From positions 374,256-438,255 of the forward strand of contig NZ_LMOO01000001.1 in NCBI RefSeq assembly GCF_001424195.1: a DNA stretch of 64,000 nt. Reading direction: 5' to 3'. The stretch comes from Cellulomonas sp. Leaf334. Lineage in GTDB: Bacteria; Actinomycetota; Actinomycetes; Actinomycetales; Cellulomonadaceae. Below, piece by piece: positions 16,774-31,943 of the stretch (positions are counted from its first letter, which is position 1; every line of letters begins with the position of its first letter). Made by a program: the position numbers and the translations under genes. The notes beneath the pieces were generated by a model. It was not told the DNA's origin, did no database searches, and was given only the letters and a program-made list of their open reading frames with translations.

Positions 16774-16802
16774 TATCGGATGCCGCGCCCGTCGACTTGA
16801 GC
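16774..16802 (-). promoter_or_regulatory. FliA/SigD-like promoter of pilMNO
   Basis: Minus strand: GCTCAAG (16802-16796), 16 bases, then CCGATA (16779-16774), about 38 bases before the pilM start. The same elements with identical spacing precede pilB, pilT and pilA. They resemble the motility sigma consensus (TCAAG or TAAA, then GCCGATA). Confidence 0.65.
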
Positions 16803-16837
16803 AGGTTCGGCCGATCTCGTGCAGAGGAGCGCGACGA

Positions 16838-17623
16838 TCAGAGCGACCCGAGGTACCACGCCGCCACCGGCTCGCCGACGACGATGCCGACGGCCGCGCC
16901 GAGCAGCATCCAGGGACCGAACGGGATCCCGGACTTGCGGCCCGCGCGGCCCGTCAGCAGGAGCCCGACGGAGAAGATTCCGCCGAGGAGGAACGCGGCG
17001 AACCAGCCGACGAAGAGCGCGCCCCACCCGAACCAGCCGAGATAGAGCCCGAGGACGCCGGCGAGCTTCACGTCACCGAACCCCATGCCTGCGGGGTAGA
17101 CGAGTGCGGCGACGAGGTAGACCCCGTACAGAGCGGCCGCGCCGATCATCGCCCGGATCAGGGCGGACCAGTCGGACACCCCGCCGGGGTTCCAGCTCGC
17201 CAGTGCCAGCAGCGCGAGCGCCACGGGGTACGCCGGGAGCACGATCGCGTTCGGCAGGCGTTTCGTGTCGATGTCGATGAGCGCGAGCGCCACGGAGATC
17301 GCTGCCAGGTAGAGCAACGCCGGCAGGACCCACGACGGGCCGGTGAACCAGGCCGTCAGACCGAACAGCACTGCCGTACCGGCTTCGACGAGCGGGTACC
17401 GCGCCGAGATCGGGTTCGCGCAGTCCCGGCACCGCCCACGGAGCAGCAGCCAGGACAGCACGGGCACGTTGTCCCGAGGGCGGATCACGTGGTGGCACCG
17501 GGGGCACGCACTGGGTGGGTGCGCGACGGACTCCCCGCGCGGCACGCGCCACACGACGACGTTGAGGAACGAGCCGACGGCGAGGCCGACGACGACGGCG
17601 ACGGCGACGAGCAGGCCGGTCAT
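16838..17623 (-). CDS. pilD: Prepilin peptidase / methyltransferase
   Basis: Membrane aspartyl protease that cleaves prepilin leaders after Gly and methylates the new N-terminus. 261 aa. The methyltransferase domain has the tetracysteine pair Cys40/Cys43 (CPRC) and Cys65/Cys68 (CRDC). Catalytic Asp residues are in LIDIDTKRLP (Asp117 or Asp119) and GFGDVKL (Asp184). About eight hydrophobic segments. The ATG at 17623 overlaps the stop of the upstream pilus-tip gene by 4 bases. It should process all the prepilin-like proteins here. Confidence 0.95.
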   Translation of the reverse strand: MTGLLVAVAVVVGLAVGSFLNVVVWRVPRGESVAHPPSACPRCHHVIRPRDNVPVLSWLLLRGRCRDCANPISARYPLVEAGTAVLFGLTAWFTGPSWVLPALLYLAAISVALALIDIDTKRLPNAIVLPAYPVALALLALASWNPGGVSDWSALIRAMIGAAALYGVYLVAALVYPAGMGFGDVKLAGVLGLYLGWFGWGALFVGWFAAFLLGGIFSVGLLLTGRAGRKSGIPFGPWMLLGAAVGIVVGEPVAAWYLGSL

Positions 17624-19191
17624 GGGTTCTTGATCTCCCGCTTGTAGACGACGTCCACCCGGTACCCGGCACTGCCGACAGGGTCCGTGCTGGGGAGGAC
17701 GACGCCGGGGATCCCGATGGGGACGTAGTTCATGGTCATCGCGTTCCGGAGCTGGACGGTCCCCCCGTAGAGCTGACCGTAGAAGTCCGTCGAGTTGTTG
17801 GTGTCGATGGTGCACGGCGTGTACATGAAGAGCGTGATCGGCGCGATCGCCAGCGATCCTGAGTCGTTCTTGATGTTTCCCGCGCCCCCGGTGCACTCCG
17901 CGATGCCGTTCGGGTTCCGGTCCGGCACGATCACCCAGAACTTGTGCTGCGCACCGTCGGCGGACGTGACCTTGAAGTCGCCGGTCGAGTAGAAGCTCTT
18001 CGCGAAGATCACCATGTCGGACCGCAGCTTGATGTTGAGGCCCCCTTCGAAGCGGGTCTCCGCGCAGTTGGTCGTGTCGAACACCGTGGGGACGGCTGGT
18101 CCGACCAACGGGCCGTTGGCGTCATAGCTCGCGCCGGCGACCTTGCACTGGTCCTTGGTCGTGTTCACGGCGTCGGCCCACGTCGGCGCGCCGTTGGCGG
18201 CCGCCTGCCCTCGCACCCACGTGCGGTAGGAGGCCTGCCGGTCGCCGGTGTTCACGAATCCCGTCCAGTCGGCAGGTCGGTACAGGACCTCGGGAAGCTT
18301 CACGGGGACATACTGCGGGATGTTCGCCGGAGCGACGGACTGGCGGAGCGCTCCGCCGACGATCGGCGTCCCTCCGGTCCGGGTCCCGGTGAGCAGCACG
18401 TCGCCGCCGATCTTCGTCCCGGCGGCCAGGTAGGCGTTGGCCGTGACGTACAGGCTCTGACCGACGGTCTGCAGCCCGCCGGGCGCGGCCTGGTGCACGG
18501 TCAGCTGCTTCTTGCTCCAGAGGTTCCCCGTGACGCGGCAGCTGTTCGAGATGTCGACGGTCCCGTTCACCACGATCAGGTTGCCCTTGATCTGCACGTT
18601 GGAGTTGCAGTTGACGTTCCCACCGTCCACCCACACGTCGACGTCGGTGTCCGGGAGCGTCGTGGTCACCGTGAAGTTGTTCGTGGTCATGATGCTGTTC
18701 GCCGCGAAGATCGCGGCGCCGCTGCCCTGGTTCGTGGACGGGGTCAGCGCCACCTTTGCCTGGACGGACCGCTTCGTCCCGTCCCCGGAGAGGGCGGTGG
18801 CGGTGACGACCGCCGACGCAGGGGTCCCGCCGGAGACCGTGCCACCGGCGCCGCAGGTGAGGGCCGTGCCCGACGCGGAGAAGTACGCGATCGTGGCCGT
18901 CGCGGTCGTGCGTGACGGCGAGGTGCCACCGACCAGCGGACCCCCGGCCGGCCAGGAGCACGGGGTCCACGTCTCGAGCTCGGCGTAGACCGCGTCGACC
19001 GCGCCTTCCGCCGTGTGGATGTCGGTCGTGCGTGCACGGTCCTGTCCGGAGTCCCGTGCCGCGGCGACCGCGTTGGCGACGACGACGGTCACGAGCATGA
19101 CGCCGATGAGCGCGACCGCGACCGCAGCGACCAGCGCGGCTCCCCGGTCGTCGCCGGAGTCGGCCAGACGTCGGCGAATGGCGTTCCGCAT
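17620..19191 (-). CDS. Large pilus-associated protein, prepilin-like, no Glu5 (PilX/GspK-like)
   Basis: 523 aa. The N-terminus has a prepilin-like leader ending DDRG (Gly17), then AALVAAVAVALIGVMLVTVVV. Mature position 5 is Ala, not the usual Glu. After this helix comes a long extracellular part rich in Thr, Asn, Gly and Val, with repeated beta-helix-like runs (NVQIKGNLIVVNGTVDISN, YLAAGTKIGGDVLLTG) and paired cysteines. This resembles the PilX N-terminal family joined to a bactofilin-like or DUF7305-like surface domain. It probably sits at the pilus tip, as the Glu5-lacking GspK does in type II secretion. ATG 19191 chosen; the frame is open far upstream without meaningful sequence. Confidence 0.7.
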   Translation of the reverse strand: MRNAIRRRLADSGDDRGAALVAAVAVALIGVMLVTVVVANAVAAARDSGQDRARTTDIHTAEGAVDAVYAELETWTPCSWPAGGPLVGGTSPSRTTATATIAYFSASGTALTCGAGGTVSGGTPASAVVTATALSGDGTKRSVQAKVALTPSTNQGSGAAIFAANSIMTTNNFTVTTTLPDTDVDVWVDGGNVNCNSNVQIKGNLIVVNGTVDISNSCRVTGNLWSKKQLTVHQAAPGGLQTVGQSLYVTANAYLAAGTKIGGDVLLTGTRTGGTPIVGGALRQSVAPANIPQYVPVKLPEVLYRPADWTGFVNTGDRQASYRTWVRGQAAANGAPTWADAVNTTKDQCKVAGASYDANGPLVGPAVPTVFDTTNCAETRFEGGLNIKLRSDMVIFAKSFYSTGDFKVTSADGAQHKFWVIVPDRNPNGIAECTGGAGNIKNDSGSLAIAPITLFMYTPCTIDTNNSTDFYGQLYGGTVQLRNAMTMNYVPIGIPGVVLPSTDPVGSAGYRVDVVYKREIKNP

Positions 19192-19226
19192 GGTGCTCGT
19201 GCTCCTGTGGTCGGGGGGACGTGACG

Positions 19227-19928
19227 TCACGGTGCCGGGACGGGGCTGCAGGTGTCGGCCGGGTAGCCGAAGATCGTGTTGCGACCGGTCAGGGTCGACG
19301 TCACCGTGGCCGGCTTCGAGGACTCCCGCTGTGCGGGGTCCTTGATGCGCAGCGTGACGCGGATCGTCTGCGCGGACGACGAGGACTCGGCGTCGGTCGC
19401 CTGCACGAAGAACGGTGGCCAGGTGGACGGGTCGGCCGCGGCGACGGTGGCCGTGGCGGGTCGGACGACGTTGCGGGCGACGGTCCGCCAAGCCGAGACC
19501 CCACCGGTGGACTGCCAGGTCGGCTTCCACGACCGGTACTCGAGCACGCCGAACGAGGAGCCGGTCGGGAACCGCACGCGCCACTGCACGCACTGGTAGA
19601 CGCCGTCGGTCTGGGTGTACACGCGCAGGGCGTAGTACGGCTCCACGCCGGACAGCGCGACACCTTCGTTGGCGGGGTCGGCGATCACGTTGCCGGACCG
19701 CACCTGGCGGTCGATCTGCATCAGCCCGATCTGCGTCTCGTCGACCGCTCGGGTGCGCGCAAGGTTGTCCTTCGTCTGCATGCTCAGGGTGAGCAGGACG
19801 GAGAACACGATCGCGAGCAGTCCGCCGAAGATGCCCATCGAGACGATCAGCTCGACGAGGGTCCATCCGCTGTCGGACCGGTCGTCTCGTGAGAGCCGGG
19901 TGCGGATGGCCCGCTGCAGCTCACGCAT
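19227..19928 (-). CDS. Minor prepilin, PilW/PulJ-like
   Basis: 233 aa. Leader of 21 residues ending in Gly, then WTLVELIVSMGIFGGLLAIVF, a class III signal with Trp at +1 and Glu at mature position 5. The C-terminal globular part has an EPYYALRVY region and the disulfide-capable C-terminus DTCSPVPAP. Its start overlaps the stop of the upstream 592-aa pilin by 8 bases. Minor pilins of this sort prime pilus assembly. Confidence 0.8.
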   Translation of the reverse strand: MRELQRAIRTRLSRDDRSDSGWTLVELIVSMGIFGGLLAIVFSVLLTLSMQTKDNLARTRAVDETQIGLMQIDRQVRSGNVIADPANEGVALSGVEPYYALRVYTQTDGVYQCVQWRVRFPTGSSFGVLEYRSWKPTWQSTGGVSAWRTVARNVVRPATATVAAADPSTWPPFFVQATDAESSSSAQTIRVTLRIKDPAQRESSKPATVTSTLTGRNTIFGYPADTCSPVPAP

Positions 19929-21699
19929 TGGGTGCCGCCTTGAATCCCGCGCTGGCGCGACCCGAACCCATGCTCGCGGCAGCGGTGACGGCGGAGGGGA
20001 CTCCGCCGGACGTCACCACGTACGTGACGGTCAGCGTCACGCTGCCGGTGTCGGACGTGATCGAGCAGCCCTCCGCCGAGCACCCGACGGGATCGGGGTT
20101 CGACGCGATCGCCATGGCCGGGGTCACCGTCACGGTGGCCGTCGCGGAGACGGTGACGCCACCGACGGTCGCGGTCACCGCCGGCGTCACCACCGTCGTG
20201 CTCGTGAGCCTGTCCAGGGTGAAGCTGGTGTACCCCGACCCGTTCCAGTAGCTCACCGTTCCGGTGCGGGAGGTGACGGCGGTCGTCGTCTTCTGCGACG
20301 GCCCCCGTTCGACGCGAGTGGCGTCCGTGTACGACGACACGGAGGCCAGCCCCGAGGGTGCAGCCGCTCCGGTCCAGGAACCGCTCCCGACGCTCGTCGT
20401 CCCGACCGTGCGCGCCACCGACGTCGCGAGACAGCCCGGACCGGACAGGGTCACACAGCCCACGGCGGTGCTGCCGGCGGCGGAGGTGAACCTCGCCCCG
20501 ATCGTCTTCGCGGACCCCCCACCGGCGAGGTTGGCCACCGTGAACGGTGTGCCGCCCGCGGTCAGCACCACGGACGCCGCGCCGCTGCTGGTGAGGTCGG
20601 AGCCGGCACACACCTGGCCGGCGGGGATGCCGGACGCGCAGGACACGGTGGTCGTCGCCTTCAGGCTCGCGGTGCTGCTCGCCGGGGCGAGCCGCAGGCT
20701 GGTGCTGGTCCCTGCCAGGTCGAGCGGGGTAGCCGACCCGACGCCGGTCACGTCGGGCGGGTTGGCGGGCGCGGCTCCGGCCGACCCGAAGTCGTTCGAC
20801 GCTGCGTTGGTGAGCCGCCCGCCGCCCGTGGCGATCGCCTCGACGTCGGCGTCGGCGGTGATCGACTGCGCTCCCCCGTGCACGGCCGTCGCCTCCACGG
20901 CGGTGGCCTGCTGGGAGGTGACGCCCACGCCGGCGTTGCCCAGGCTCAGGGTGGCGACGGTCGCGTCGGTGCCCGGGATGAGAGGCGTGGTGGGGGTCGT
21001 GGCGGGTCCGCTCGGCCCGGCGCCGGCGGCGGTCACCGTCACGGTCGGGCCGGTCGCGCCCGCATCACCGGACAGGAGCGCCTGGCACGCCCCGAGGTAG
21101 GGCTGGTTGGACGAGTCCCCGCACCCGCCCGTCGGCGCGAACGCCTGTGACCGCAGGATCACGTGCTTCGGTGTCGCGGACTGGTTCGCCCGCCAGGACG
21201 TGATCACCGTCAGGGTGAGGACGTTGGCGGCCGTCTGCGCGGACCGGGTGACGTACACCCGGCTCGTGTACGTGACGCTGGGGATCGACGGGTCAGGCTC
21301 GACGGTCTTGTTCGACCCGCCCGCGCCCGACAGCGGCGCACGGTCCGTGGTCTGGTCGGTGCTGATGACCAACGGCTCGTCGATCGACGCGTCGGCCGGC
21401 GGCCGCAGCTGGGTCCCGGTCACGTTGGGGTCTCCCCCGGCGGCCGACGCGAACGCCGAGTGCATGCCCTTGGAGAGCGACGCCCACGGGAGCGCGCGGA
21501 TCTGCTCCATCACCTCGTTGGCGACGGCGGTGCCCTGCGTGCGCTGCCTCGTCTGGGCGTTGGTCACCAGCGCCGACGTCTGCACCGCCATGAGACTGAA
21601 CAGCACCGCGGAGATCACCATCATGGCGACGAGCAGCTCCACCAGGGTGAAGCCGGACTCGTCCGAGCGCACCCGATCGCACCTGCTACGCCATGCCAT
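19921..21699 (-). CDS. Very large minor prepilin, PilV-like with Ala/Thr/Val-rich extension
   Basis: 592 aa from ATG 21699, which has GGAGG 9 bases upstream; an in-frame ATG at 21753 has a G-rich tract too close to serve. Leader ends at Gly16, then FTLVELLVAMMVISAVLFSLM with Glu at mature position 5. A PilV-like head follows (ANEVMEQIRALPW) to about residue 210. The remaining 380 residues are low in charge and rich in Ala, Thr, Val, Gly and Ser, with beta-strand-like alternation and spaced Cys pairs, unlike ordinary 150-200 aa minor pilins. Function likely adhesive or tip-exposed; no specific fold recognised. Confidence 0.7.
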   Translation of the reverse strand: MAWRSRCDRVRSDESGFTLVELLVAMMVISAVLFSLMAVQTSALVTNAQTRQRTQGTAVANEVMEQIRALPWASLSKGMHSAFASAAGGDPNVTGTQLRPPADASIDEPLVISTDQTTDRAPLSGAGGSNKTVEPDPSIPSVTYTSRVYVTRSAQTAANVLTLTVITSWRANQSATPKHVILRSQAFAPTGGCGDSSNQPYLGACQALLSGDAGATGPTVTVTAAGAGPSGPATTPTTPLIPGTDATVATLSLGNAGVGVTSQQATAVEATAVHGGAQSITADADVEAIATGGGRLTNAASNDFGSAGAAPANPPDVTGVGSATPLDLAGTSTSLRLAPASSTASLKATTTVSCASGIPAGQVCAGSDLTSSGAASVVLTAGGTPFTVANLAGGGSAKTIGARFTSAAGSTAVGCVTLSGPGCLATSVARTVGTTSVGSGSWTGAAAPSGLASVSSYTDATRVERGPSQKTTTAVTSRTGTVSYWNGSGYTSFTLDRLTSTTVVTPAVTATVGGVTVSATATVTVTPAMAIASNPDPVGCSAEGCSITSDTGSVTLTVTYVVTSGGVPSAVTAAASMGSGRASAGFKAAPNA

Positions 21700-21801
21700 C
21701 CCGAGGTTCCTCCACCCGCCGTGCCGTGAGAGCGCTACCACACCTGCGCGCATCCCTCCCCCAACGGCACGATCGACGTGCGGCATGAGCCCGATCTGAA
21801 G

Positions 21802-21828
21802 AACTCGGCGGAGTCTCATCAAACTTTC
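21802..21828 (-). promoter_or_regulatory. FliA-like promoter of the PilV/PilW/pilD unit
   Basis: Minus strand: GAAAGTTT (21828-21821), 11 bases, GCCGAGTT (21809-21802). The E. coli FliA consensus is TAAAGTTT-N11-GCCGATAA, so the first box matches 7 of 8 and the second begins with the invariant GCCGA. It lies between a terminator (21887-21917) and the start at 21699. Confidence 0.6.
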
Positions 21829-21886
21829 ATCCACCGGATCGGACTCCCCGGTACATGCTCGGACGAACCGCAGCGCGACGAGCGAA

Positions 21887-21917
21887 CGGCCGCCGCACCC
21901 CGTGGGTACGGCGGCCG
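21887..21917 (-). terminator. Terminator hairpin after the 634-aa pilus protein gene
   Basis: CGGCCGCCG (21887-21895) pairs perfectly with CGGCGGCCG (21909-21917) around 13 bases. It lies 6 bases past the stop at 21923 and divides the minor-pilin genes into two units. Confidence 0.75.
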
Positions 21918-21922
21918 CCTCG

Positions 21923-23827
21923 TCACGACCTGAGCTCAGGCGGCGTGTCGATCTCGCCGAAGTACCGCTGCGACCACTGCGCGTTGACCCACCGGGGGAA
22001 GTAGGGCGGCGCGCTGTACTTGAGGCGCGTGTCGTAGACGTACTTCTTCAGGTAGCCGGTGTCCCCGTTGCCCGTTCCGACGATCCCGCGCCAGCGCTGG
22101 GCGATGGAGCCGTCGACCCGCAGCAGGCCCTCGCCGTTCCCGTCCGAGGTCTTGTCGTAGCGCTGCACGTAGAACGAGTGCTGGAGGGTCTGGATCGAGC
22201 CCATGATCTCGATGCCCTCGAACGAGGCCACACCGGCCGGCGGGGTGATGTTGGCGGGCCAGTCTGGCACCGCGCCCGTCTCCGTCCCGGGCTCGGACCC
22301 CCACTTGCAGCTCGAGTGGCTGGGGCACGGACCGCCCTGCGCGTCGACCCGCGTCATCCACGGGTGGAAGACCTCGACCGAGTTGGTGGCGACGAGGCCG
22401 ACCATGTCGGAGCCGGTGAGACCACCGGCGAGCATGATGTCTCCGGTGAGGATCACGGACTGTGCGGCGGCGAGCGTGACGCGACCCTTGACCGTGCCCT
22501 GCACGTAGAGGTTGCCCTCCTGGCAGTACTTCGTCGACTCCTTCATCGTCGTGTCGTACGTGTAGGTCGAGTTCGTGGCCGGTGGCTTGGCCGCCGCGAT
22601 CGCCTGCGTGTACGTGCCGAGCGGGAGGACCGACGTACCAGGGCCGCCGATCTGGCCCGCGCTGCAGCGGGAGTGTGTGATCCCCGTGTTCTCGGCGGAC
22701 ACCTGGATGACCATGTTGTCCGGGACCGCGACGGTCGCGCCGCCCGCCGAGTTCAGGTTCGTGGTGGACCCGCACGAGGGTGAGGAACCACCGGGGGGCG
22801 CGATCGCCGTGGGGTTTCCGCCTCCGTTGACGACCTTGTTCCAGACCTGCATGGTCCCCGCGCCGTCGAAGATGATCCGGGTCGACCCGTAGTAGTGGCA
22901 GCCGGGGAAGCCGCTGAAGGCCGCCGACGTGTCGTCCAGGTACAGCGCCTTCGAGTACTCGGGCTGGACGCCGTTGAAGTTCGCGGTGCTGTAGCTGGCA
23001 CCCGTCTTGCGCAGGCACTTGCGCCAGGTGGACGTCGCCGCCGTGACGGTCCGGCACTCGGGGTTGGCCGAGAGGAAGCCGTCGGTGAACGTGGGGCTGT
23101 TGGCGAGCACCGAGTCGTTCGAGAACACCGTGCCCTCGAGCGTGTCCCCGGGGGCGAACTGGATCTCGTTGCAGTCCTTGCCCTCGCGTCCCTCCCACCA
23201 GTACAGGGCGGCGTCGTACCCCCCGATCCCACAGGCCGCCTTCTCCGTGGTGCTCAGCGAGGCGATCTTCGTCGGCGTGTAGGACTGCACGTTCGACGGG
23301 TCGGCGGACTCGAAGTCGGTGTAGTAGACGTAGTCCGTCGAACCACCCTTACCCACGGCCGCCTCGACGGTGCGGTACTCACCGTTGACCTTGCCCGTGG
23401 ACCGCACGGAGATCGTGCCCTCGGTCATCGCCCGGGAGGCGTCGACGGAGTAGTGGAAGAAGGCGTCCTTGGGCCCTGTCTCGCCGGGAGCGACAGGAAG
23501 CCAGCCCAGAGGTGTGCCGGCACCCCAGCCGCACGCGTTGCCGGGGACGGCCGGGCCGCGCAGCGCGAGGTTCCCGCAGTCGACCGTCGAGAAGTACCCG
23601 TCGTCGCGGTTCAGGCGCGAGATGAAGTCGTCGATGCCGGACTGCGCCGCGGACATCGTGCTCGAGTAGTCCTGGTCGTACCGCGCGAACTTCTGGCTCG
23701 AGACGGTGTAGGCCAGGGCGGTGAGAGCGAGCATCGCCAGCACCATCATCGATCCGACGACGAGGAGCAGAGCCATGCCCGCGTCGTCGCCCTTCGACGG
23801 CCGTCGGGTGCGCAGCAACCTGGTCAC
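21923..23827 (-). CDS. Large pilus-associated protein, prepilin-like, no Glu5 (PilX/GspK-like)
   Basis: 634 aa from GTG 23827; its start shares one base with the TAG stop of the upstream gene. Leader ends DDAG (Gly17), then MALLLVVGSMMVLAMLALTALAY, with Leu instead of Glu at mature position 5. The next part is PilX-like (ALAYTVSSQKFARYDQDYSSTMSAAQSGIDDFI). A long extracellular region with at least twelve cysteines and a beta-helix-like segment (GRVTLAAAQSVILTGDIMLAGG) follows. Same plan as the 523-aa protein at 17620-19191. Probably a pilus-tip or adhesin-like component. Confidence 0.7.
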   Translation of the reverse strand: MTRLLRTRRPSKGDDAGMALLLVVGSMMVLAMLALTALAYTVSSQKFARYDQDYSSTMSAAQSGIDDFISRLNRDDGYFSTVDCGNLALRGPAVPGNACGWGAGTPLGWLPVAPGETGPKDAFFHYSVDASRAMTEGTISVRSTGKVNGEYRTVEAAVGKGGSTDYVYYTDFESADPSNVQSYTPTKIASLSTTEKAACGIGGYDAALYWWEGREGKDCNEIQFAPGDTLEGTVFSNDSVLANSPTFTDGFLSANPECRTVTAATSTWRKCLRKTGASYSTANFNGVQPEYSKALYLDDTSAAFSGFPGCHYYGSTRIIFDGAGTMQVWNKVVNGGGNPTAIAPPGGSSPSCGSTTNLNSAGGATVAVPDNMVIQVSAENTGITHSRCSAGQIGGPGTSVLPLGTYTQAIAAAKPPATNSTYTYDTTMKESTKYCQEGNLYVQGTVKGRVTLAAAQSVILTGDIMLAGGLTGSDMVGLVATNSVEVFHPWMTRVDAQGGPCPSHSSCKWGSEPGTETGAVPDWPANITPPAGVASFEGIEIMGSIQTLQHSFYVQRYDKTSDGNGEGLLRVDGSIAQRWRGIVGTGNGDTGYLKKYVYDTRLKYSAPPYFPRWVNAQWSQRYFGEIDTPPELRS

Positions 23828-24585
23828 TAGTCCTCCTCGTCCTGGCGGAGGACGGCCTGCGCGTTCGGCAGCGTCACCCGCTGGATGTACGTGGTGGGGT
23901 CCACGCGCGTCGCGTTCTGCGCCTGGACCGAGACGACGAGCTCGACGGCGAGCACCCGCGACAGCTCGTCCGCGGTCAGCGAGCCGTTGGTCGGAGGCGT
24001 GAGCCGTGCCCCTGCGCCGTCGTAGAACGCCAGCATCGGACCGGTGCCGGACTGGACGCCGGTCGCCAGCGTGCGCGTGACGAGCCGCTTGCGACAGTCC
24101 GACCCCGCGGCAGCGGCCTCGGCGTCGCAGTAGACGTACCCCGTCGCCGCCGGCAGGTTCGAGTCGGGCACCTGCACCTTCTCGACGAGGGTTCCCGCGG
24201 CCGCTCCCGTGGTCGCGAGCGTGTAGGTGACCCGGCTCGGGCCCACGCTGTTCCCGGGGTTGTCGATGTTCGCGTAGAACTGGACGCTGAAGTTCTGGCC
24301 GTTGACGAAGGCGTCCTGCGTGCACAGGGTGCAGGTCGTGGTGAGCTGGCTCGGCATGACCGCCGTGCGCAGCTTCTTGGACATGGTCTCCACGACCACG
24401 CGCGCGGAGTCGACCTGGTCCTGCCGGGAGATCGACTCGGCGTTCGACCGCGTGAAGCCGATCACCAGGGTCCCGACCGCGGCGATCAGGATCGAGAACA
24501 CCAGCATCGACACGAGCATCTCGGTGAGGCTCGTGCCCCGCTCGTCGCGGTGTGCCGGGAGCGTTCGGCGCAGGTCGGCGCTCAC
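23827..24585 (-). CDS. Minor prepilin, PilW-like
   Basis: 252 aa from GTG 24585, which overlaps the stop of the 644-aa pilin gene by 4 bases. Leader ends ERG (Gly17), then TSLTEMLVSMLVFSILIAAVG, Glu at mature position 5. Then a PilW/PulJ-like stretch (SISRQDQVDSARVVVETMSKKLR) and a CTLC pair near residue 82. The middle gene of three overlapping minor-pilin genes. Confidence 0.78.
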   Translation of the reverse strand: MSADLRRTLPAHRDERGTSLTEMLVSMLVFSILIAAVGTLVIGFTRSNAESISRQDQVDSARVVVETMSKKLRTAVMPSQLTTTCTLCTQDAFVNGQNFSVQFYANIDNPGNSVGPSRVTYTLATTGAAAGTLVEKVQVPDSNLPAATGYVYCDAEAAAAGSDCRKRLVTRTLATGVQSGTGPMLAFYDGAGARLTPPTNGSLTADELSRVLAVELVVSVQAQNATRVDPTTYIQRVTLPNAQAVLRQDEED

Positions 24586-26516
24586 GGCCCGGTGCTCCCG
24601 CCGCTGCTCGTGTTCTTCGACAGCACGGAGGTACCCGGGCCGACGACGTACGTGCCCGCCGTGGTGCACCGGTTCCCCGATCCCGAGTTCTCCTTGTTCC
24701 AGAGGTACGCGTAGTAGGTCGTCGTGCCGGACGTCGGCCGCGGGACACCGGAGACGGTGAGCGACTGTGTGCCCGACGACGACTTCCCGGTGGACTGGTA
24801 CTTCGTCCCGGAGGGGGAGGCGACGGTCTGCGTGCACCCGGTGACGACCACCGGGCTGATCAGCAGGTACCGGTTGGTGGTGCTGATGTTCGTCATCGTG
24901 AGGGCCGCGTACAGCGTCGGCGGCGGGGTGGACGCCCAGTTCTTCAGCACCGCCGTGCCGTACGGGGCACCGAAGGCGCTGATCAGGTCCGGGTAGCTGA
25001 CGCAGGTCCCGTTCCAGGGACCGTTCGTCTGCCAGACGTACCAGCTGCCCGCCGGGATCACGACCGGCGCCGAGCGTGCACCGTCGACGTTGATCGCGAT
25101 CGCCCCGACGGTGGTCGGGCAGGTGGTCAGCGACGCGAGGCCCGACTTCTGCTTCTCGGCGATCCAGACGGTTCCGGTGGACAGGCCCTGGATGCGGAGC
25201 GTCGTGGTCGCCCAGGTGATGTCCTCGTTCTCCCCGCTGCCGAGGCTGACGTTCACGGGACCGGGCGAGCAGGCGAACGTGGTCCCGACGGCGTAGAGGT
25301 CGTACGCGGCCGGCATGAGGACGAAGCTCGCCCCGGACCCGGACGCGGGGGCCGACGTACCGGTCGAGCAGGTGGTGGGCACGGTCCCGGTGGGGACGGC
25401 CAGGACGTTCGTGGTGCCCGACGGGAGGTTCGCGACCAGGACGGACGCCATCTCGAGCGTGACCTCGAGCGTGACGTGACCACCCGGAGGGAGGTCGACC
25501 ATGTCGTAGCCGCCGGGCGGCGCAGCGCTGCCGAAGTACGCGCCGTAGCTGGTGGGCCACAGGCCGGTGAACGTGGTGCTCACTCCGCCTGCGACGCGAG
25601 GGCTCTCCCCCGTCGCGCCGGAGTACTGCGACGCGACGAGCGTCAAGGGCGACCCGCTCGCCTGTGCGTTCGTCAACGACTGCCCGTCGGACCGCACGAT
25701 GGTGACCGTGACGCTGCCCGCCTTCGCCACCGTGAAGCTGGCGCCGGCGTAGATCTGGCTCGGCATGATGACGCCGGAGTTCTTGCTCGGGTTCGCGGTC
25801 CCGGAGAGGTCGACGTAGGAGCCGTCGGCCACCGTGATCGTGTAGGCGGCACCGGCGGTCGGCGGGCTGATCCGGATCACGGCACAGCCGGACGCGTCGG
25901 TGTGGCCCGTGGTGGTCGCCCCACCGGTCGCCGTGACCGGGATGCCGGACAACGGCTTGGCGTCCTGGTCGAGGACCTTCGCGGCGATGAACGAGTCCGT
26001 GGTGGCGATGCCCGTCTCTTTGTCCGGGGCCAGCGACGCGGTGCTCACCACCGGCTGCACGCCGCCCATGTTCGGCCAGGTGACGGTGACGGTCACGCCC
26101 AGCGTCGGGTACGCGACGAGCGAGCCACCCTCGCAGGCGGACGCTCCGGTACCGGCGATGTTCCACTGGGCGGTGCGCACGACGGTGTACTTGCGACCGT
26201 CGATGACCAGCGGCTGGCCCGCCGTGCCGCCGGCCAGCGGGTGCGGGTTGAGCACGTACCCGGCAGCGGCGAGGTTGACGGGTCCCGCGTCGGTCCGGGC
26301 GAACTCTTCGCGCACCAGGTCGATCTCGCGGGCGGCCAGGTTGGCGGCGGCGATCCGGCTGCGGTTCGCGACCCCCTGCGACTGCGAGCTCATGATCACG
26401 CCGATGACCGCCACGGCCATCGTGCCGAGCACGACCATCGCGACGACCAGCTCGATGAGGGAGAACCCCTGGTCGGCGCCTCGGGCGCCGCGCGGGCTAC
26501 GTACCACGGTGTACAC
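24582..26516 (-). CDS. Very large minor prepilin with Ig-like/carboxypeptidase-regulatory-like repeats
   Basis: 644 aa from GTG 26516; a second in-frame GTG at 26507 has a better spaced AGAGG and would give 641 aa. Leader ends ADQG (Gly17), then FSLIELVVAMVVLGTMAVAVIG, Glu at mature position 5. After a pilin-like head, the region from about residue 180 holds repeats of the carboxypeptidase-regulatory or Cna-B-like type (AAKVLDQDAKPLSGIPVTATGG...), which build extended stalks in surface proteins. Far larger than usual minor pilins. Likely a surface-exposed stalk or adhesin at the pilus tip. Confidence 0.72.
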   Translation of the reverse strand: MYTVVRSPRGARGADQGFSLIELVVAMVVLGTMAVAVIGVIMSSQSQGVANRSRIAAANLAAREIDLVREEFARTDAGPVNLAAAGYVLNPHPLAGGTAGQPLVIDGRKYTVVRTAQWNIAGTGASACEGGSLVAYPTLGVTVTVTWPNMGGVQPVVSTASLAPDKETGIATTDSFIAAKVLDQDAKPLSGIPVTATGGATTTGHTDASGCAVIRISPPTAGAAYTITVADGSYVDLSGTANPSKNSGVIMPSQIYAGASFTVAKAGSVTVTIVRSDGQSLTNAQASGSPLTLVASQYSGATGESPRVAGGVSTTFTGLWPTSYGAYFGSAAPPGGYDMVDLPPGGHVTLEVTLEMASVLVANLPSGTTNVLAVPTGTVPTTCSTGTSAPASGSGASFVLMPAAYDLYAVGTTFACSPGPVNVSLGSGENEDITWATTTLRIQGLSTGTVWIAEKQKSGLASLTTCPTTVGAIAINVDGARSAPVVIPAGSWYVWQTNGPWNGTCVSYPDLISAFGAPYGTAVLKNWASTPPPTLYAALTMTNISTTNRYLLISPVVVTGCTQTVASPSGTKYQSTGKSSSGTQSLTVSGVPRPTSGTTTYYAYLWNKENSGSGNRCTTAGTYVVGPGTSVLSKNTSSGGSTGP

Positions 26517-26585
26517 CTCTGCCTGTCAGCGGGCCCTGGACGGGTGCGGACGACCCGGACGAATCGGTGGTGCGACGAACCGAGG

Positions 26586-26634
26586 AAGCCCCGGCGGGTA
26601 ACGAGAGCGGTGCTCGCGTCGCCCACCGGGGCTT
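26586..26634 (-). terminator. Terminator hairpin after pilA
   Basis: AAGCCCCGG (26586-26594) and CCGGGGCTT (26626-26634) form a 9-bp stem around a long loop that contains a smaller hairpin. It lies 12 bases past the pilA stop, so high pilA expression can be isolated from the minor-pilin genes downstream. Confidence 0.75.
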
Positions 26635-26646
26635 TCTACGGGTGGA

Positions 26647-27093
26647 TCAGCAGCCGGCGGTCTTGTTCAGACCGTCAGTGGCGGAGTAGGAGACCGCGTC
26701 GTGCGTGCCGCCGGTGTAGGCGATCTCGACGCACCAGCCCTGCGTGGCGGTGTCGTCCGCGCCGGGGGTCAGGGTGACGGTGTCGACACCGTTGCTGACC
26801 TTGCCGATGTCCGAGGCGGTGCCGTCGTAGCTGATCGTGTAACGGTCGCTGGCGATCGCCACGTCGCCCGCCGCGAGCGCGGTGGTCGCGTCGACGTAGT
26901 ACGTCGCGATCTCCTTGCCCAGCGTGGAGACGTCGGAGACGGCGGCCGTGTCCTGGGCCTTCTTGCGCTGGTTCAGGAACACCGGGATCGCGATGGCCGC
27001 GAGGATGCCGATGATGATCATGACGACGAGGAGCTCGATAAGGGTGAAGCCCTTGTCCTTCTCCTCCATGGACTTGCGAATACGAGCGATCAT
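26647..27093 (-). CDS. pilA: Major type IV pilin
   Basis: 148 aa. A 15-residue leader with several charged residues ends in Gly15, then FTLIELLVVMIIIGILAAIAIP, the classic class III signal with Phe at +1 and Glu at mature position 5. Then NQRKKAQDTAAVSDV and a small globular domain with Cys near residues 123 and 148, able to form the C-terminal D-loop disulfide. Has its own GGGGAG ribosome binding site, its own promoter region, and a terminator, as expected for the abundant pilus subunit. Substrate of the prepilin peptidase at 16838-17623. Confidence 0.93.
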   Translation of the reverse strand: MIARIRKSMEEKDKGFTLIELLVVMIIIGILAAIAIPVFLNQRKKAQDTAAVSDVSTLGKEIATYYVDATTALAAGDVAIASDRYTISYDGTASDIGKVSNGVDTVTLTPGADDTATQGWCVEIAYTGGTHDAVSYSATDGLNKTAGC

Positions 27094-27173
27094 GTTGAGC
27101 TCCCCATGAAGTCAGTGCGGATGGTCTGTGTCACATTCAGTCCGGCAGCGCCGGTTCGGTCCTACAAGCCATG

Positions 27174-27202
27174 CATCGTCCTGGACCCGCCGGACCTTGA
27201 GC
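27174..27202 (-). promoter_or_regulatory. FliA/SigD-like promoter of pilA
   Basis: Minus strand: GCTCAAG (27202-27196), 16 bases, ACGATG (27179-27174), about 80 bases before pilA. Same spacing as the elements before pilB, pilT and pilM. The second half deviates at its first base (A for C), the weakest of the four. Confidence 0.55.
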
Positions 27203-27226
27203 CCGACGCCCGGATGATCGCGGATT

Positions 27227-27244
27227 CACTCGCTCGGAGCAGTG
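27227..27244 (-). terminator. Possible hairpin after pilC
   Basis: CACT (27227-27230) with AGTG (27241-27244) and an inner GCTC/GAGC can fold into a compact hairpin 13 bases past the pilC stop. The stem has one mismatch and a very small loop, and there is no U tract. Weak evidence for a terminator or mRNA-end structure. Confidence 0.35.
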
Positions 27245-27257
27245 CCGCACGTGCCGG

Positions 27258-28487
27258 TCACTCGATGAGCGCGAAGACACCGAAGATGGGCATGTACATG
27301 GCGATGACCATGGAGCCGACGATGGCGCCGATGACCACGATCATGAGCGGCTCGATGAGGCTGGTGAGCTGCTCGGTGGTGGACTCGACCTCCTGGTCGT
27401 AGAAGTCCGCGACCTTGGCGAGCATGGTGTCGAGCGCGCCCGTGTCCTCACCGACGGCCATCATCTGCACCACCATCGGGGGGAACACCGGGTGCTGCGA
27501 CAGCGGCCCTGCCAGGGACTCTCCTCGTCGGACCGACTCCTGGACGGCCTTGGCAGCCCGTTCGATGACGAGGTTGCCGCTGGTCTCACCGACGATGTCC
27601 AGGGCCTGCAGCAGGGGCACGCCGGCGTGGATCATGGTGCCGAAGTTCCGGGTGAACCGGGACACCGCGATCTTTCGGAACAGCTGCCCGAAGACGGGCA
27701 CCTTGAGCTTCCAGGGATCGAGGCGCTCGCGGATCGCCCGGTCGTTCTTGTGCTTTCCCCACCAGACCGTGAAAATGACGAGGGCAATGATGAACGGAAT
27801 GATCACGATCTTCAGGCCCTGCGACATCCACATGAGGATCTGTGTCGGGAGCGGGAGCTTTCCGCCGAGGCTCTCGAACATTCCTGCGAAGACCGGGACG
27901 ATGAAGAGCAGCATTCCGGTCGTGGCAAGGATCGCGATGACGAAAACGACCACCGGGTAGGTCATCGCGGACTTGATCTTTCCGCGCAGCTTGACCTCGG
28001 CCTCGAAGTTGTTCGCGACCGAGACGAGCGTCTGGTCGAGGAACCCGCCGACCTCGCCCGCCTTGACCATGTTGATCATGAGGGGCGGGAACACGTCCGC
28101 GTGCTTCGTCAGCGCGGTGGAGAACGCCGTGCCGACCTCGACGTCGTTGCGCACCTGGGCGATCACCTTGGCCAGCGCCTTCGACTCGGTCTGCTCCGCG
28201 AGGATCGTCAGCGCGCGCAGCAGCGACAGGCCCGAGTCGATCATCGTGGCGAGCTGCCGCGACATGATCGACAGGTCCTTGAGCGAGATCTTGTTCCCGC
28301 CGAAGCCGGGGATGTTGATCTCGGCGTTCAGGCCACCGGTGCTGACCTCGGAGATCGAGACCGCCGCGAGGCCCATCTCCCGCAGCCGGTTGGCGACCGC
28401 CGCCTGGTTGGTCGCCTCGACGCGACCCTTGACGATCTTGCCGGCCTTGTCCCGGACGGCGTACTCGAACGTCTTCGCCCCGGCCAT
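27258..28487 (-). CDS. pilC: Type IV pilus inner-membrane platform protein PilC
   Basis: 409 aa GspF-family protein. Two homologous cytoplasmic helical domains (N-terminal one around LKDLSIMSRQLATMIDSGLSLLRAL, second around KIAVSRFTRNFGTMIHAGVPLLQAL), each followed by membrane segments. The preceding MAGAKTFEYAVRDKAGKIVKGRVEA is the usual N-terminal extension. ATG 28487 shares one base with the pilT stop. It couples the PilB and PilT motors to pilin insertion and removal. Confidence 0.95.
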   Translation of the reverse strand: MAGAKTFEYAVRDKAGKIVKGRVEATNQAAVANRLREMGLAAVSISEVSTGGLNAEINIPGFGGNKISLKDLSIMSRQLATMIDSGLSLLRALTILAEQTESKALAKVIAQVRNDVEVGTAFSTALTKHADVFPPLMINMVKAGEVGGFLDQTLVSVANNFEAEVKLRGKIKSAMTYPVVVFVIAILATTGMLLFIVPVFAGMFESLGGKLPLPTQILMWMSQGLKIVIIPFIIALVIFTVWWGKHKNDRAIRERLDPWKLKVPVFGQLFRKIAVSRFTRNFGTMIHAGVPLLQALDIVGETSGNLVIERAAKAVQESVRRGESLAGPLSQHPVFPPMVVQMMAVGEDTGALDTMLAKVADFYDQEVESTTEQLTSLIEPLMIVVIGAIVGSMVIAMYMPIFGVFALIE

Positions 28488-30058
28488 CAGAGGGCCTGGC
28501 TTCCGAAGGTGGCGCCGCCCATGCTCGCCTGGTCACCCAGACCGGCGGCACCCTGCGACCCGCCCGAGAACCGGCCGGTCAGACGGTTGAAGTCCTCCAC
28601 GTGATGGCACTTCTCCAGTCCGGTCTCGTAGGTGATCTTGCCGGTCTTGACCAGCTCGGAGAGGTGCTGGTCCATGGTGTGCATGCCCTGCTTGGCGCCG
28701 GCCTGCATCGCGGAGTAGATCTGGTGCGTCTTGCCCTCACGGATGAGGTTGCGGATGGCGGGGGTGGCCACGAGCACCTCGGTGGCCACCGCCCGGCCGG
28801 GCGAGTCCGACCGCTTGGCGAGGGTCTGGCAGACGACGCCCTGGATGGCGCCGGCCAGCTGCGTGCGGACCTGCGACTGCTGGTGCGACGGGAACACGTC
28901 GATGACGCGGTCGATCGTCTGGGCGGCGTCCTGCGTGTGCAGCGTGGCGAAGACCAGGTGACCGGTCTCGGCAGCGGTGAGGGCCACGGAGATCGTCTCG
29001 AGGTCACGCATCTCGCCGACCAGGATGATGTCGGGGTCCTGCCGCAGCACGTGCTTGAGCGCGTTGGCGAAGGAGTGCGTGTCCTGGCCGACCTCGCGCT
29101 GGTTCACCACGCACTTCTTGTGCCGGTGGAGGAACTCGATGGGGTCCTCGACGGTCATGATGTGGTCCTCGCGCGTCCGGTTGGCGAGGTCGACGATCGA
29201 GGCGAGCGTCGTCGACTTGCCGGAGCCGGTCGGGCCCGTGACGAGCACCAGCCCGCGCGGCAGGCCGGCGAACGTGCCGACGACCGCGGGGATCCCGAGC
29301 GCCTCGAGCGGCTTGATCTCGTACGGGATCACCCGGAACGCGGCGCCGATGGACTCGCGCTGCTGGTAGATGTTCACGCGGAACCGTGCCAGGCCGCGGA
29401 CGGAGTAGGACAGGTCGAGCTCGAGGTTGGCCTCGAACTTCTCGCGCTGTTTTTGCGTCAGGAACGCGTACAGCGTGCGGCGCAGCCCCTCGGGCACCAC
29501 CTGCCCGAAGCCGTCGAGCGCCTTCAGCGAGCCGTTGATGCGCACCATCGGGGTCGTGCCCGTGGTGAGGTGCACGTCGGAGGCGCCGAGCCGCACCATC
29601 TCGGTGAGGATCTCGTCGATCGGGAGGTCGCCCTCCTGCTGCTCCTGGCCCATCCCGCGACGCTGCGCCCGGTCACGGGCCGGCGCGGCCGGCCGCGCGG
29701 CGGGCGCGGCCGGTGCCTGCGGTGCCTGCGGGGGCGCCACGGCCGCGGGAGCGGGAGCCGGCATGAACACCTTGGTGGCGCCCATCGGCGTCGTTCCCGG
29801 CCCCTGGGGTGCGAACGAGGTCGGCTGCGCGGGCGCCGCGTACGTCGGCGGGCCGGACGGACCGGGCTGGTACGCAGCGGAGGGAGCCGCCGGTGCCTGT
29901 GCCTGGTACGGCGGCGGGCTCGGCGGAGCTTGCGGCGCACTGCTCTGCGACGGGATCGGCGAGAACATCGCCGGCGCTCCCGCCTGCGGCCCGACGGGTC
30001 GGTAGGGCGGCAACGGCCGCGAGGGCTCCCCCGTGGGTGCCTGATAGTTCTCGCTCAC
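28487..30058 (-). CDS. pilT: Pilus retraction ATPase PilT with proline-rich N-terminal extension
   Basis: 523 aa. Residues 1-140 are disordered and rich in Pro, Ala and Gln, with no counterpart in the usual ~350 aa PilT. The ATPase core starts near residue 145 (DLPIDEILTEMVRLGASDVHL). Walker A GPTGSGKS at 275-282, the Asp box VEDPIEF at 303-309, Walker B IILVGEMRD, the His box and the PilT hallmark AIRNLIRE at 434-441. AIRNLIRE identifies a retraction motor, so twitching is expected. The GTG/ATG region has its own FliA-like promoter; pilC follows with a one-base overlap. Confidence 0.95.
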   Translation of the reverse strand: MSENYQAPTGEPSRPLPPYRPVGPQAGAPAMFSPIPSQSSAPQAPPSPPPYQAQAPAAPSAAYQPGPSGPPTYAAPAQPTSFAPQGPGTTPMGATKVFMPAPAPAAVAPPQAPQAPAAPAARPAAPARDRAQRRGMGQEQQEGDLPIDEILTEMVRLGASDVHLTTGTTPMVRINGSLKALDGFGQVVPEGLRRTLYAFLTQKQREKFEANLELDLSYSVRGLARFRVNIYQQRESIGAAFRVIPYEIKPLEALGIPAVVGTFAGLPRGLVLVTGPTGSGKSTTLASIVDLANRTREDHIMTVEDPIEFLHRHKKCVVNQREVGQDTHSFANALKHVLRQDPDIILVGEMRDLETISVALTAAETGHLVFATLHTQDAAQTIDRVIDVFPSHQQSQVRTQLAGAIQGVVCQTLAKRSDSPGRAVATEVLVATPAIRNLIREGKTHQIYSAMQAGAKQGMHTMDQHLSELVKTGKITYETGLEKCHHVEDFNRLTGRFSGGSQGAAGLGDQASMGGATFGSQAL

Positions 30059-30131
30059 GTCATTCCCTCCACGTGGTCGCCTGGTTCGACCGACACGGAC
30101 GTGGCGGCACCGGGCCTTCGTTCTGGACGTT

Positions 30132-30160
30132 CATCGGCGGTGCGGATGCCCGACTTGAGG
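30132..30160 (-). promoter_or_regulatory. FliA/SigD-like promoter of pilT-pilC
   Basis: Minus strand: CCTCAAG (30160-30154), 16 bases, CCGATG (30137-30132), preceded by G (GCCGATGA). It lies 74 bases before pilT in the 121-base space after pilB. Spacing identical to the pilB, pilA and pilM elements. Confidence 0.68.
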
Positions 30161-30179
30161 CATCGGCGGGTGGCAGTAC

Positions 30180-31856
30180 CTACGTGACGACGACGCGCAG
30201 GATCTCCTCGACGGAGGTCTGACCGAGCGCGACCTTGTGCCAGCCGTCGTCGCGGAGCGGGATCATGCCCTGCTTCACGGCGGTGGCGGCGATGTCGGCG
30301 GACGACGAGTGGGCGACGGCGTGACGCTCGATCTCCTCGGTGACCCGCATGACCTCGTGGAGCGCGATCCGGCCCCGGTACCCGGTCTTCGAGCAGGTCA
30401 CGCAGCCGACGCGGCGCATGAGCTCCGGCAGCGGCTCACCGTCGACCCAGGGGAACCGGGCCGCGAGGAGCTCCTGCGGGGTGGGGGTGTACGCCTCCTT
30501 GCACTTGCCACAGAGCTTGCGTGCGAGGCGCTGGGCGACGACGGCGTCCAGCGCCGACCCGACGAGGAACGGCTCGATGCCCATCTCCGTCAGACGCGTG
30601 ATGGCCGACGGGGCGTCGTTCGTGTGCAGCGTCGAGAGCACGAGGTGACCGGTCAGGGCCGCCTCGACGGCGATCTGTGCGGTCTCGTGGTCGCGGATCT
30701 CACCCAGGAGGACGACGTCGGGGTCGGACCGCAGGATCGACCGCAGCGCCCCCGCGAACGTCAGGCCCGCCTTGGGGTTGACCTGCACCTGGTTGATGCC
30801 GGCGAGCCGGTACTCGACCGGGTCCTCGACCGTGATCACGTTGATCTCCGGCTTCGACACCGCGTTCAGCGTGGCGTAGAGCGTCGTCGACTTGCCCGAA
30901 CCCGTCGGGCCGGTCACCAGGATCATCCCGTAGGGCTTGGTGTACGACTCGCGGTACACCTCGTAGTTGGAGTCGAGGAACGACAGGTCCCGCAGGTCGA
31001 GGCTCGCGGTGGAGTTGTCGAGGATGCGCATGACGATCTTCTCGCCCCACACGGTCGGCAGCGTGGCCACCCGGAGGTCGATCTTGCGTCCGTTGTGCAC
31101 CACGGACATGCGGCCGTCCTGGGGCTTGCGGCGCTCCGCGATGTCGATGTCGCTCATGATCTTCACGCGGCTGATGACACCGCCGGTGATCTGCTTGGGT
31201 GCTCGCTGGGTCTCGTGCAGCACGCCGTCGATCCGGTAGCGGACGCGCAGGTCCTTCTCGGACGGCTCGATATGGATGTCCGACGCACGGTCGGTGATCG
31301 CCTGCGTCACCAGCAGGTTGACGAACCGCACGATGGGGGCGTCGTCGTTGCCGATCTCCGCCATCTTCGACAGGTCGGCCTCGCTCTCGTCGACCTGGTC
31401 CTCGAACGCCTGCGAGAGGTCTTCCATCTCGTCGTCGGCGCGGCAGAACCGGTCGATGGCCCGCAGCAGGTTGTCGTGCGTGGCGATGACGGGGATCACG
31501 GACATGCCCGACACCGACCGCACGTCGTCGACGGCCATCACGTTGCCGGGGTCGGAGGTCGCGAGCACGATCGAGCCGCCCTCGAGCGCGACCGGCAGCA
31601 CGGAGTACCGGCGACACAGGGCTCCCGGCACCATGCTGACTGCGGTGCGGTCGACCGGGTAGTCGTCGAGGTCGACGAAGTCCATGCCCACCTGGTTGGC
31701 CAGGGCCTTGACCAGCTGGGACTCCGTGAGCACCCCGAGCTCGACCAGAGTGCGTCCCAACGTCGTTCCCCGGGCCAGCGTCTCGTCGAGCGCCGCGAGC
31801 AGCTGCGCCTCCGTGACGAGGCCGTCGTCGAGCAGGATCTCCCCGAGCTGCTTCAC
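30180..31856 (-). CDS. pilB: Pilus extension ATPase PilB with MshEN-like N-terminal domain
   Basis: 558 aa from GTG 31856, which has GGAGG 7-8 bases upstream; longer in-frame starts enter the promoter. Residues 1-135 form an MshEN-like domain: KQLGEILLDDGLVTEAQLLAAL and a second copy LGRTLVELGVLTESQLVKAL, the tandem motif family that binds c-di-GMP in MshE. The ATPase domain has Walker A GPTGSGKS at about 316-323, Asp box TVEDPVEYRL, and the tetracysteine CGKC...CVTC zinc site at about 449-488 found in extension motors. It powers pilus polymerisation. Confidence 0.95.
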   Translation of the reverse strand: MKQLGEILLDDGLVTEAQLLAALDETLARGTTLGRTLVELGVLTESQLVKALANQVGMDFVDLDDYPVDRTAVSMVPGALCRRYSVLPVALEGGSIVLATSDPGNVMAVDDVRSVSGMSVIPVIATHDNLLRAIDRFCRADDEMEDLSQAFEDQVDESEADLSKMAEIGNDDAPIVRFVNLLVTQAITDRASDIHIEPSEKDLRVRYRIDGVLHETQRAPKQITGGVISRVKIMSDIDIAERRKPQDGRMSVVHNGRKIDLRVATLPTVWGEKIVMRILDNSTASLDLRDLSFLDSNYEVYRESYTKPYGMILVTGPTGSGKSTTLYATLNAVSKPEINVITVEDPVEYRLAGINQVQVNPKAGLTFAGALRSILRSDPDVVLLGEIRDHETAQIAVEAALTGHLVLSTLHTNDAPSAITRLTEMGIEPFLVGSALDAVVAQRLARKLCGKCKEAYTPTPQELLAARFPWVDGEPLPELMRRVGCVTCSKTGYRGRIALHEVMRVTEEIERHAVAHSSSADIAATAVKQGMIPLRDDGWHKVALGQTSVEEILRVVVT

Positions 31857-31899
31857 GCGCGTCCCTCCGGTAGAACCGGCGGCCGGTCCTGACCGCACG

Positions 31900-31918
31900 G
31901 ATGTCTGTCGTAGACATC
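31900..31918. promoter_or_regulatory. Inverted repeat overlapping the pilB promoter
   Basis: GATGTCT-N5-AGACATC, a perfect 7-bp inverted repeat. It covers the second half of the FliA-like element and the predicted transcription start of pilB, 44 bases before the start codon. A repressor or activator site is the natural reading; an mRNA 5' hairpin is also possible. Confidence 0.5.
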
Positions 31919-31943
31919 GGCATGGAGGTCGAGGTGCCTGAGC
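31915..31943 (-). promoter_or_regulatory. FliA/SigD-like promoter of pilB
   Basis: Minus strand: GCTCAGG (31943-31937), 16 bases, CCGATG (31920-31915), preceded by G (GCCGATG). Same spacing as the other pilus elements. The first half begins 4 bases beyond the aroE stop, so it starts the pilus locus. Confidence 0.66.

Follow-up and report, generated by a model that had tools for sequence, protein, structure and literature searches.

Putative WhiG-type promoter elements repeated before the type IV pilus genes of a Cellulomonas genome

Sigma factors of the FliA/WhiG type are best known from flagella and from the sporulation of Streptomyces, and type IV pili are retractable surface fibres. The question raised by the present locus is which sigma factor reads an element that is repeated before the type IV pilus genes. 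The window, i.e. the whole 64 kb stretch that was analyzed (G000:C1:374256-438255), belongs to a genome of 4.74 Mb in 12 contigs. On its minus strand, the interval between aroE and aroC carries pilB, pilT, pilC, pilA, six pilin-like genes, pilD, pilM, pilN and pilO:

30180..31856, minus strand: pilB, pilus extension ATPase (TIGR02538, 644.7 bits, below the cut-off of 675.65)
28487..30058, minus strand: pilT, pilus retraction ATPase (TIGR01420, 485.9 over 319.1)
27258..28487, minus strand: pilC, platform protein (best model NF052607, 418.2, below the cut-off of 700)
26647..27093, minus strand: pilA, major pilin (position and prepilin motif; TIGR02532, 38.9 over 16.3)
17620..26516, minus strand: six pilin-like genes, from gene calls (24582-26516, 23827-24585, 21923-23776, 19921-21672, 19227-19928 and 17620-19191)
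16838..17623, minus strand: pilD, prepilin peptidase (PF06750, 120.4 over 23; PF01478, 53.4 over 26.5)
15672..16736, minus strand: pilM (TIGR01175, 168.1 over 133)
14977..15675, minus strand: pilN (position and a weak match to PF05137, 17.7, below 22.8)
14178..14975, minus strand: pilO (position and a weak match to PF04350, 17.5, below 22)

All the parts of a type IV pilus (PilB, PilT, PilC, pilin, prepilin peptidase and PilM/N/O) are present; PilB and PilC fall under the cut-offs of equivalog models, PilN and PilO match weakly, and the remaining parts score over their cut-offs. We read the low score of PilC as ordinary divergence; in the PilC comparison, the nearest named loci are those of Cellulomonas, with 93% identity at best. 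Among the six pilin-like proteins, two match N_methyl of Pfam over the cut-off, a third reaches 20.8 vs 21.2 and three have no match. Residues 3-55 of PilB (31692-31850 in the window) match NF053729, a model of an MshE-related c-di-GMP-binding domain (52.8 over 38), and a direct input of c-di-GMP to pilus extension through this domain is possible. Four putative promoters of the WhiG/FliA type precede units of this locus, their distances being measured in the sense direction to the predicted gene starts (39-82 nt):

31915..31943, minus strand: pilB element, GCTCAGG-N16-CCGATG, intergenic, ending 60 nt before the pilB start
30132..30160, minus strand: pilT-pilC element, CCTCAAG-N16-CCGATG, ending 75 nt before the pilT start
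27174..27202, minus strand: pilA element, GCTCAAG-N16-ACGATG, ending 82 nt before the pilA start
16774..16802, minus strand: pilM-pilN-pilO element, GCTCAAG-N16-CCGATA, ending 39 nt before the pilM start

The sequence-only reading of this DNA had placed the four elements at these positions, each in the gap before its unit and with exactly 16 bases between the two halves, and this description was right throughout. Its pattern has four matches in the whole window, which are exactly the four pil elements; 300 dinucleotide-preserving shuffles gave 0.017 matches on average and never more than one. The −10 half is of the GCCGAT type, with CCGAT in three of the four sites and ACGAT before pilA. The published flagellar −35 half, TAAA, is absent from all four, CTCAAG or CTCAGG standing in its place. 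The base that follows CCGAT was left free by the search and proves to be a purine in 93% of 41 intergenic 27-mers, including the four of the window. A fifth, E. coli-like site that had been proposed at 21802-21828 does exist as a sequence; it carries CCGAG, not CCGAT, and only one of 22 named loci has the strict element before the counterpart gene, so that it was not counted. The site at 17837-17863 was likewise set aside: it falls within the coding sequence of a pilin-like gene and is conserved in one of 44 relatives.

The elements had been interpreted as promoters of the FliA/SigD/WhiG type, which they fit, and the search for an encoded FliA found a single gene of the FliA/WhiG family whose product scores over the cut-off (266.7 bits in the profile search). 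This protein passes the NCBIfam WhiG model NF004935 (353.1, or 353.5 in another run, over 343) and its sigma regions 2, 3 and 4 (PF04542, PF04539 and PF04545) each exceed their cut-offs. Among solved structures, its nearest relative is 6pfj (305 bits; entry name 'RNA polymerase sigma factor'), which we take to be the WhiG of S. venezuelae and which the tree places within the rpsB-linked clade. The gene lies away from the pilus locus, between dprA and rpsB, and dprA, whiG, an M23-like gene and rpsB are found together in 14 of the 14 relatives examined (the names other than whiG being our reading). In this genome, the sigma gene directly follows the dprA-like gene, which we read as a DNA-uptake partner (L028 8385-13005, G000:C6); a link of the pilus to DNA uptake is possible.

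A scan of the whole genome with CTCARG-N16-MCGATR, proposed as a check for random placement, gave nine matches compared to one for the reversed control. Eight of the nine are intergenic and aimed at a gene, four of these being in the pil locus, and the ninth is antisense within a gene; the placement of these strict matches is thus not random. With the looser CTCARG-N15..17-CCGA, the genome gave 77 matches vs 65 for the control, an excess that is not clear. The four other gene-directed sites precede a second pilT (TIGR01420, 440.2 over 319.1), the gene of a 137-aa LuxR-type protein (GerE, 60 bits over 23.5), the gene of a VanY-type protein (27.7 over 25) and the gene of a 172-aa protein that matched no family. 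In four congeners, whose comparison rests on 20 of 25 non-pilus matches, the LuxR-type gene is preceded by a site in all four and the second pilT in three; relatives of the VanY-type gene and of the 172-aa gene have such a site in one congener each. The second pilT adjoins a zinc-finger, anti-sigma-like gene (PF13490), and this gene and what we read as its partner sigma gene precede it (L021 404-2825, G000:C7). Upstream of the VanY-type gene lies a small divergent gene that is 64.5% identical between L019 (1078-2735) and L166 (1282-2987).

The element was then sought in relatives as CTCA(A/G)G-N15..17-(C/A)CGAT. Among 20 loci of the same family, 16 carry it before at least one of pilB, pilT, pilA and pilM. 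The other four stay in the denominator: L044 has a variant site without a pil assignment, L047 has no element, L048 is devoid of gene calls and L049 is a piece of 3.4 kb. Over both strands, the 20 loci contain 49 matches to the core pattern vs none to its reversed form. When the sites in these relatives were placed relative to genes, five (two in L033, one each in L035, L038 and L041) lay in non-pilX2 coding sequence or before unassigned genes. The named loci gave a finer view, 69 of the 78 being used after exclusion of nine distant ones (L123, L137-L139, L141-L143, L145 and L147), with L128 outside the classes. In 48 loci of Cellulomonas, Actinotalea, Sanguibacter and similar bacteria, the full element precedes 39 of 43 scorable pilM genes, 28 of 48 pilA, 15 of 17 pilT and 14 of 44 pilB, with zero antisense and zero reversed matches at the four genes. 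Short windows were scored, and genes with scant upstream sequence or an uncertain start were dropped, hence the 17 pilT genes from 48 loci; an earlier count that left out the truncated loci L073, L098 and L117 gave 14 of 65 for pilB and 27 of 65 for pilT. The −10 half alone is found upstream of 37 of the 44 scorable pilB genes, its antisense matches amounting to 5 in 152 windows of the Cellulomonas group and 3 in 44 of Demequina.

Conservation varies beyond this group. The 16 Demequina loci are devoid of the full element, although WhiG is present in the genomes tested; their −10 half precedes 12 of 14 pilB, 14 of 15 pilM and none of 15 pilA genes. By eye, the region upstream of pilM in Demequina (e.g. 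L110, L118 and L133) keeps GCCGATA, and its −35 half, at a similar spacing, is often CTTGAG, which is CTCAAG in reverse complement. Among loci from WhiG genomes in other families of the order, 8 of 15 carry the full element and seven are without it, with no antisense match; none of five loci from genomes without WhiG, in two other families, has it. It is also absent from four named pilus loci (Okibacterium, two Mycetocola and Cryobacterium), in whose genomes no WhiG-type match exceeded the cut-off. Two members of the family without WhiG, G009 and G015, likewise lack the strict element in their pilus loci. Second pilB copies with 68-69% identity lie in L066 and L067 (G071 and G093), with one core match per locus; a second pilus may be under different regulation.

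The sequence-only reading went on to suggest that the pilus is expressed in a dispersal state, which may be so, or with flagella, which cannot apply to this genome: flagellin has no match in it and FHIPEP (FlhA family) has weak matches only. The latter are two adjacent genes (61.5 and 30.6 bits; L026 13634-18557, G000:C7:143634-148557) and were rejected as flagellar genes on account of these scores and of neighbours that do not look flagellar. FlgM, the third flagellar family searched, has no match either, which says little since, according to the available text of PMC4255298, even motile actinobacteria with WhiG have no FlgM-like protein.

The distribution of the sigma factor was compared with those of the pilus and of flagella in 101 genomes of the family, by counts that ignore kinship. 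WhiG and a close PilB are both present in 47, WhiG alone in two, PilB alone in two and neither in 50. The two WhiG-only genomes (G001 and G036) are both in many contigs; among the PilB-only ones, G062 is fragmented and G009 is a real exception, having a pilus without WhiG. For WhiG and flagellin, the corresponding numbers are 39, 10, 7 and 45: 10 of 49 WhiG genomes, including the present one, lack flagellin, and 7 of 46 flagellin genomes lack WhiG. Within the family, the sigma factor tracks the pilus ATPase better than flagellin. The link is weaker at the level of the order (both 38, WhiG only 28, close PilB only 14, neither 118, kinship again ignored). Counting PilB homologues of 41-46% identity yields 65, 1, 15 and 117, a near-perfect order-wide pattern that was rejected, many of its PilB being such homologues and five sampled loci being without pilC or pilM.

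Flagellar clusters were also sampled, ten from genomes with WhiG and four from genomes without. All 14 encode their own sigma factor, 31-37% identical to the WhiG of this genome. In a tree that has no outgroup and carries a long-branch warning, 15 rpsB-linked sigma factors separate from those of flagellar clusters with a split of 100/100; the 20 'flagellar' rows include six weaker sigma matches, two of which (L181 and L182) adjoin flagellin by the coordinates compared. The core element has six matches and no reversed one in the 14 clusters, and stands before a gene in three. It ends 10 nt before what we read as the flagellar sigma gene in L054 (10770-10796) and L055 (9638-9664), both of which also have it about 84 nt before an apparent rod-protein gene, by the same reading. 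In L050, 43 nt separate it from a 404-aa gene downstream, and the match in L060 has its next gene at a distance of 589 nt. Possibly the flagellar sigma factor recognizes promoters of a similar kind, or, in some species, WhiG acts on the flagellar cascade; the position of the element before the flagellar sigma gene of L054 and L055 makes a cascade from WhiG to that factor possible. In flagellated relatives, the pilus may be expressed with flagella: their clusters have their own sigma factor, yet the element precedes genes in 3 of 14.

We consider it probable, with good confidence, that the WhiG-family (sigma-28 type) sigma factor of this genome reads the four elements as its promoters. Because the pil genes share its promoter type in a genome without a flagellin gene, this suggests that the sigma factor here serves the pilus. 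Several observations count against the WhiG reading. The full element is missing upstream of many genes of relatives, for example 30 of 44 pilB, and from two of the 20 family loci that have adequate sequence, L047 and L048, with WhiG present or gene calls missing. It is missing as well from all 16 Demequina loci and from 7 of 15 WhiG loci of other families, G009 has a pilus without WhiG, the −10 half alone has a few antisense matches, and 3 of 14 flagellar clusters also carry the element before a gene.

A motility programme, with flagella and pili under one and the same sigma factor and the pilus as part of a swimming or dispersal state, would share the same sigma family and promoter type. It would account for the element before the flagellar sigma and rod-like genes of L054 and L055 and before a gene in L050, and has a parallel in Actinoplanes, whose pili and flagella are both under WhiG-like sigma factors according to the available text of PMC8325347. 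Nevertheless, it is unlikely given the absence of flagellin here, the WhiG genomes without flagellin (10 of 49), the flagellin genomes without WhiG (7 of 46), and the separate clade of the sigma factors that all 14 flagellar clusters possess. It is more improbable still that some other regulator or sigma factor binds the element and that WhiG and the pilus co-occur through shared ancestry alone. The counts do ignore phylogeny, the protein-DNA link is a prediction, and 28 of 66 WhiG genomes of the order have no close PilB; but two conserved halves around a free spacer, with a purine after CCGAT in 93% of 41 sites, resemble the flagellar consensus TAAA / GCCGATAA quoted in PMC8325347 (available text), and the −10 half persists in loci with a different −35 half. 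Chance matches in GC-rich DNA, to which the near-control count of the looser pattern (77 vs 65) and the poorly kept match at 17837-17863 might point, are a negligible explanation in view of the shuffles, of the zero antisense and reversed matches at the four genes of the named loci and of the conservation of the element across genera.

Under the preferred reading, RNA polymerase bearing WhiG would start the four units pilB, pilT-pilC, pilA and pilMNO, the pilA unit perhaps extending through the pilin-like genes and pilD. The extension and retraction motors, the pilin and the alignment proteins would thereby be made together. The second pilT, the small LuxR-type DNA-binding protein and the VanY-type cell-wall peptidase would join them in a compact pilus regulon. 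The sequence read by the WhiG polymerase in this genome would most likely be CTCA(A/G)G-N16-(C/A)CGAT(A/G), and c-di-GMP may act on the pilus machine through the PilB domain. WhiG binding, transcription starts, operon extent, timing and any anti-sigma control are predictions of this scheme. More tentatively, WhiG could be foremost a pilus sigma factor among Cellulomonadaceae-like bacteria and possibly across much of the order. It would be kept when flagella are lost and missing from flagellated genomes without this pilus, and flagella would have their own sigma factor; pilus control would then be old in actinobacteria and sporulation in Streptomyces later. We hold this broader view to be somewhat less than an even bet, slightly lowered because the element was found in three flagellar clusters.

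Cellulomonas, like Rubrobacter, is non-filamentous as far as known. WhiG-type promoters with mapped starts are reported in the pilus cluster of Rubrobacter in the available text of PMC8325347, from which the statements below on Rubrobacter and Actinoplanes are also taken. Both Rubrobacter (PMC8325347) and this genome have a WhiG-family sigma factor and several promoters, putative here, within a type IV pilus cluster. The promoters of Rubrobacter were found with TAAA / GCCGATAA and their starts mapped (PMC8325347), whereas the predicted promoters here have CTCAAG as their −35 half. RsiG was shown in Rubrobacter, and the main RsiG holders named there do not include the present family (PMC8325347). 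Furthermore, 5 of 12 mapped promoters of Rubrobacter precede c-di-GMP enzymes (PMC8325347), compared to none of the eight gene-directed sites found here. In Actinoplanes missouriensis, sigma factors of the FliA/WhiG family are likewise stated to act on the type IV pilus genes of zoospores (PMC8325347), as one putatively does here; that species has several FliA sigma factors and flagellated spores, compared to a single such factor above the cut-off, and no flagellin, in the present genome. The WhiG of Streptomyces, nearest by solved structure (6pfj), targets sporulation genes according to the available text of PMC4255298, whereas pilus genes are the predicted targets here. With FliA and SigD, the flagellar sigma factors, the present one has its superfamily and the −10 core in common; it differs in that no flagellin is found here and that the sigma factors of relatives' flagellar clusters are 31-37% identical to it and belong to another clade.

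Our search, which could not reach most subscription papers, found no publication on WhiG and pili in Cellulomonas or its family. In 2013, the roles of WhiG in the motility of simple motile actinobacteria were still without analysis, according to the available text of PMC4255298. Systems of this kind are known, and the analysis adds the present case and the breadth of its occurrence, together with a −35 half that reads CTCAAG and the presence of a distinct sigma factor for flagella. The comparison points to the pilus as a role of WhiG and names a promoter, targets and species. Overall, it extends the WhiG-pilus link published for Rubrobacter, which branches deeply in the phylum, to Cellulomonas and its relatives, and bears on the job of WhiG before Streptomyces used it for spores.
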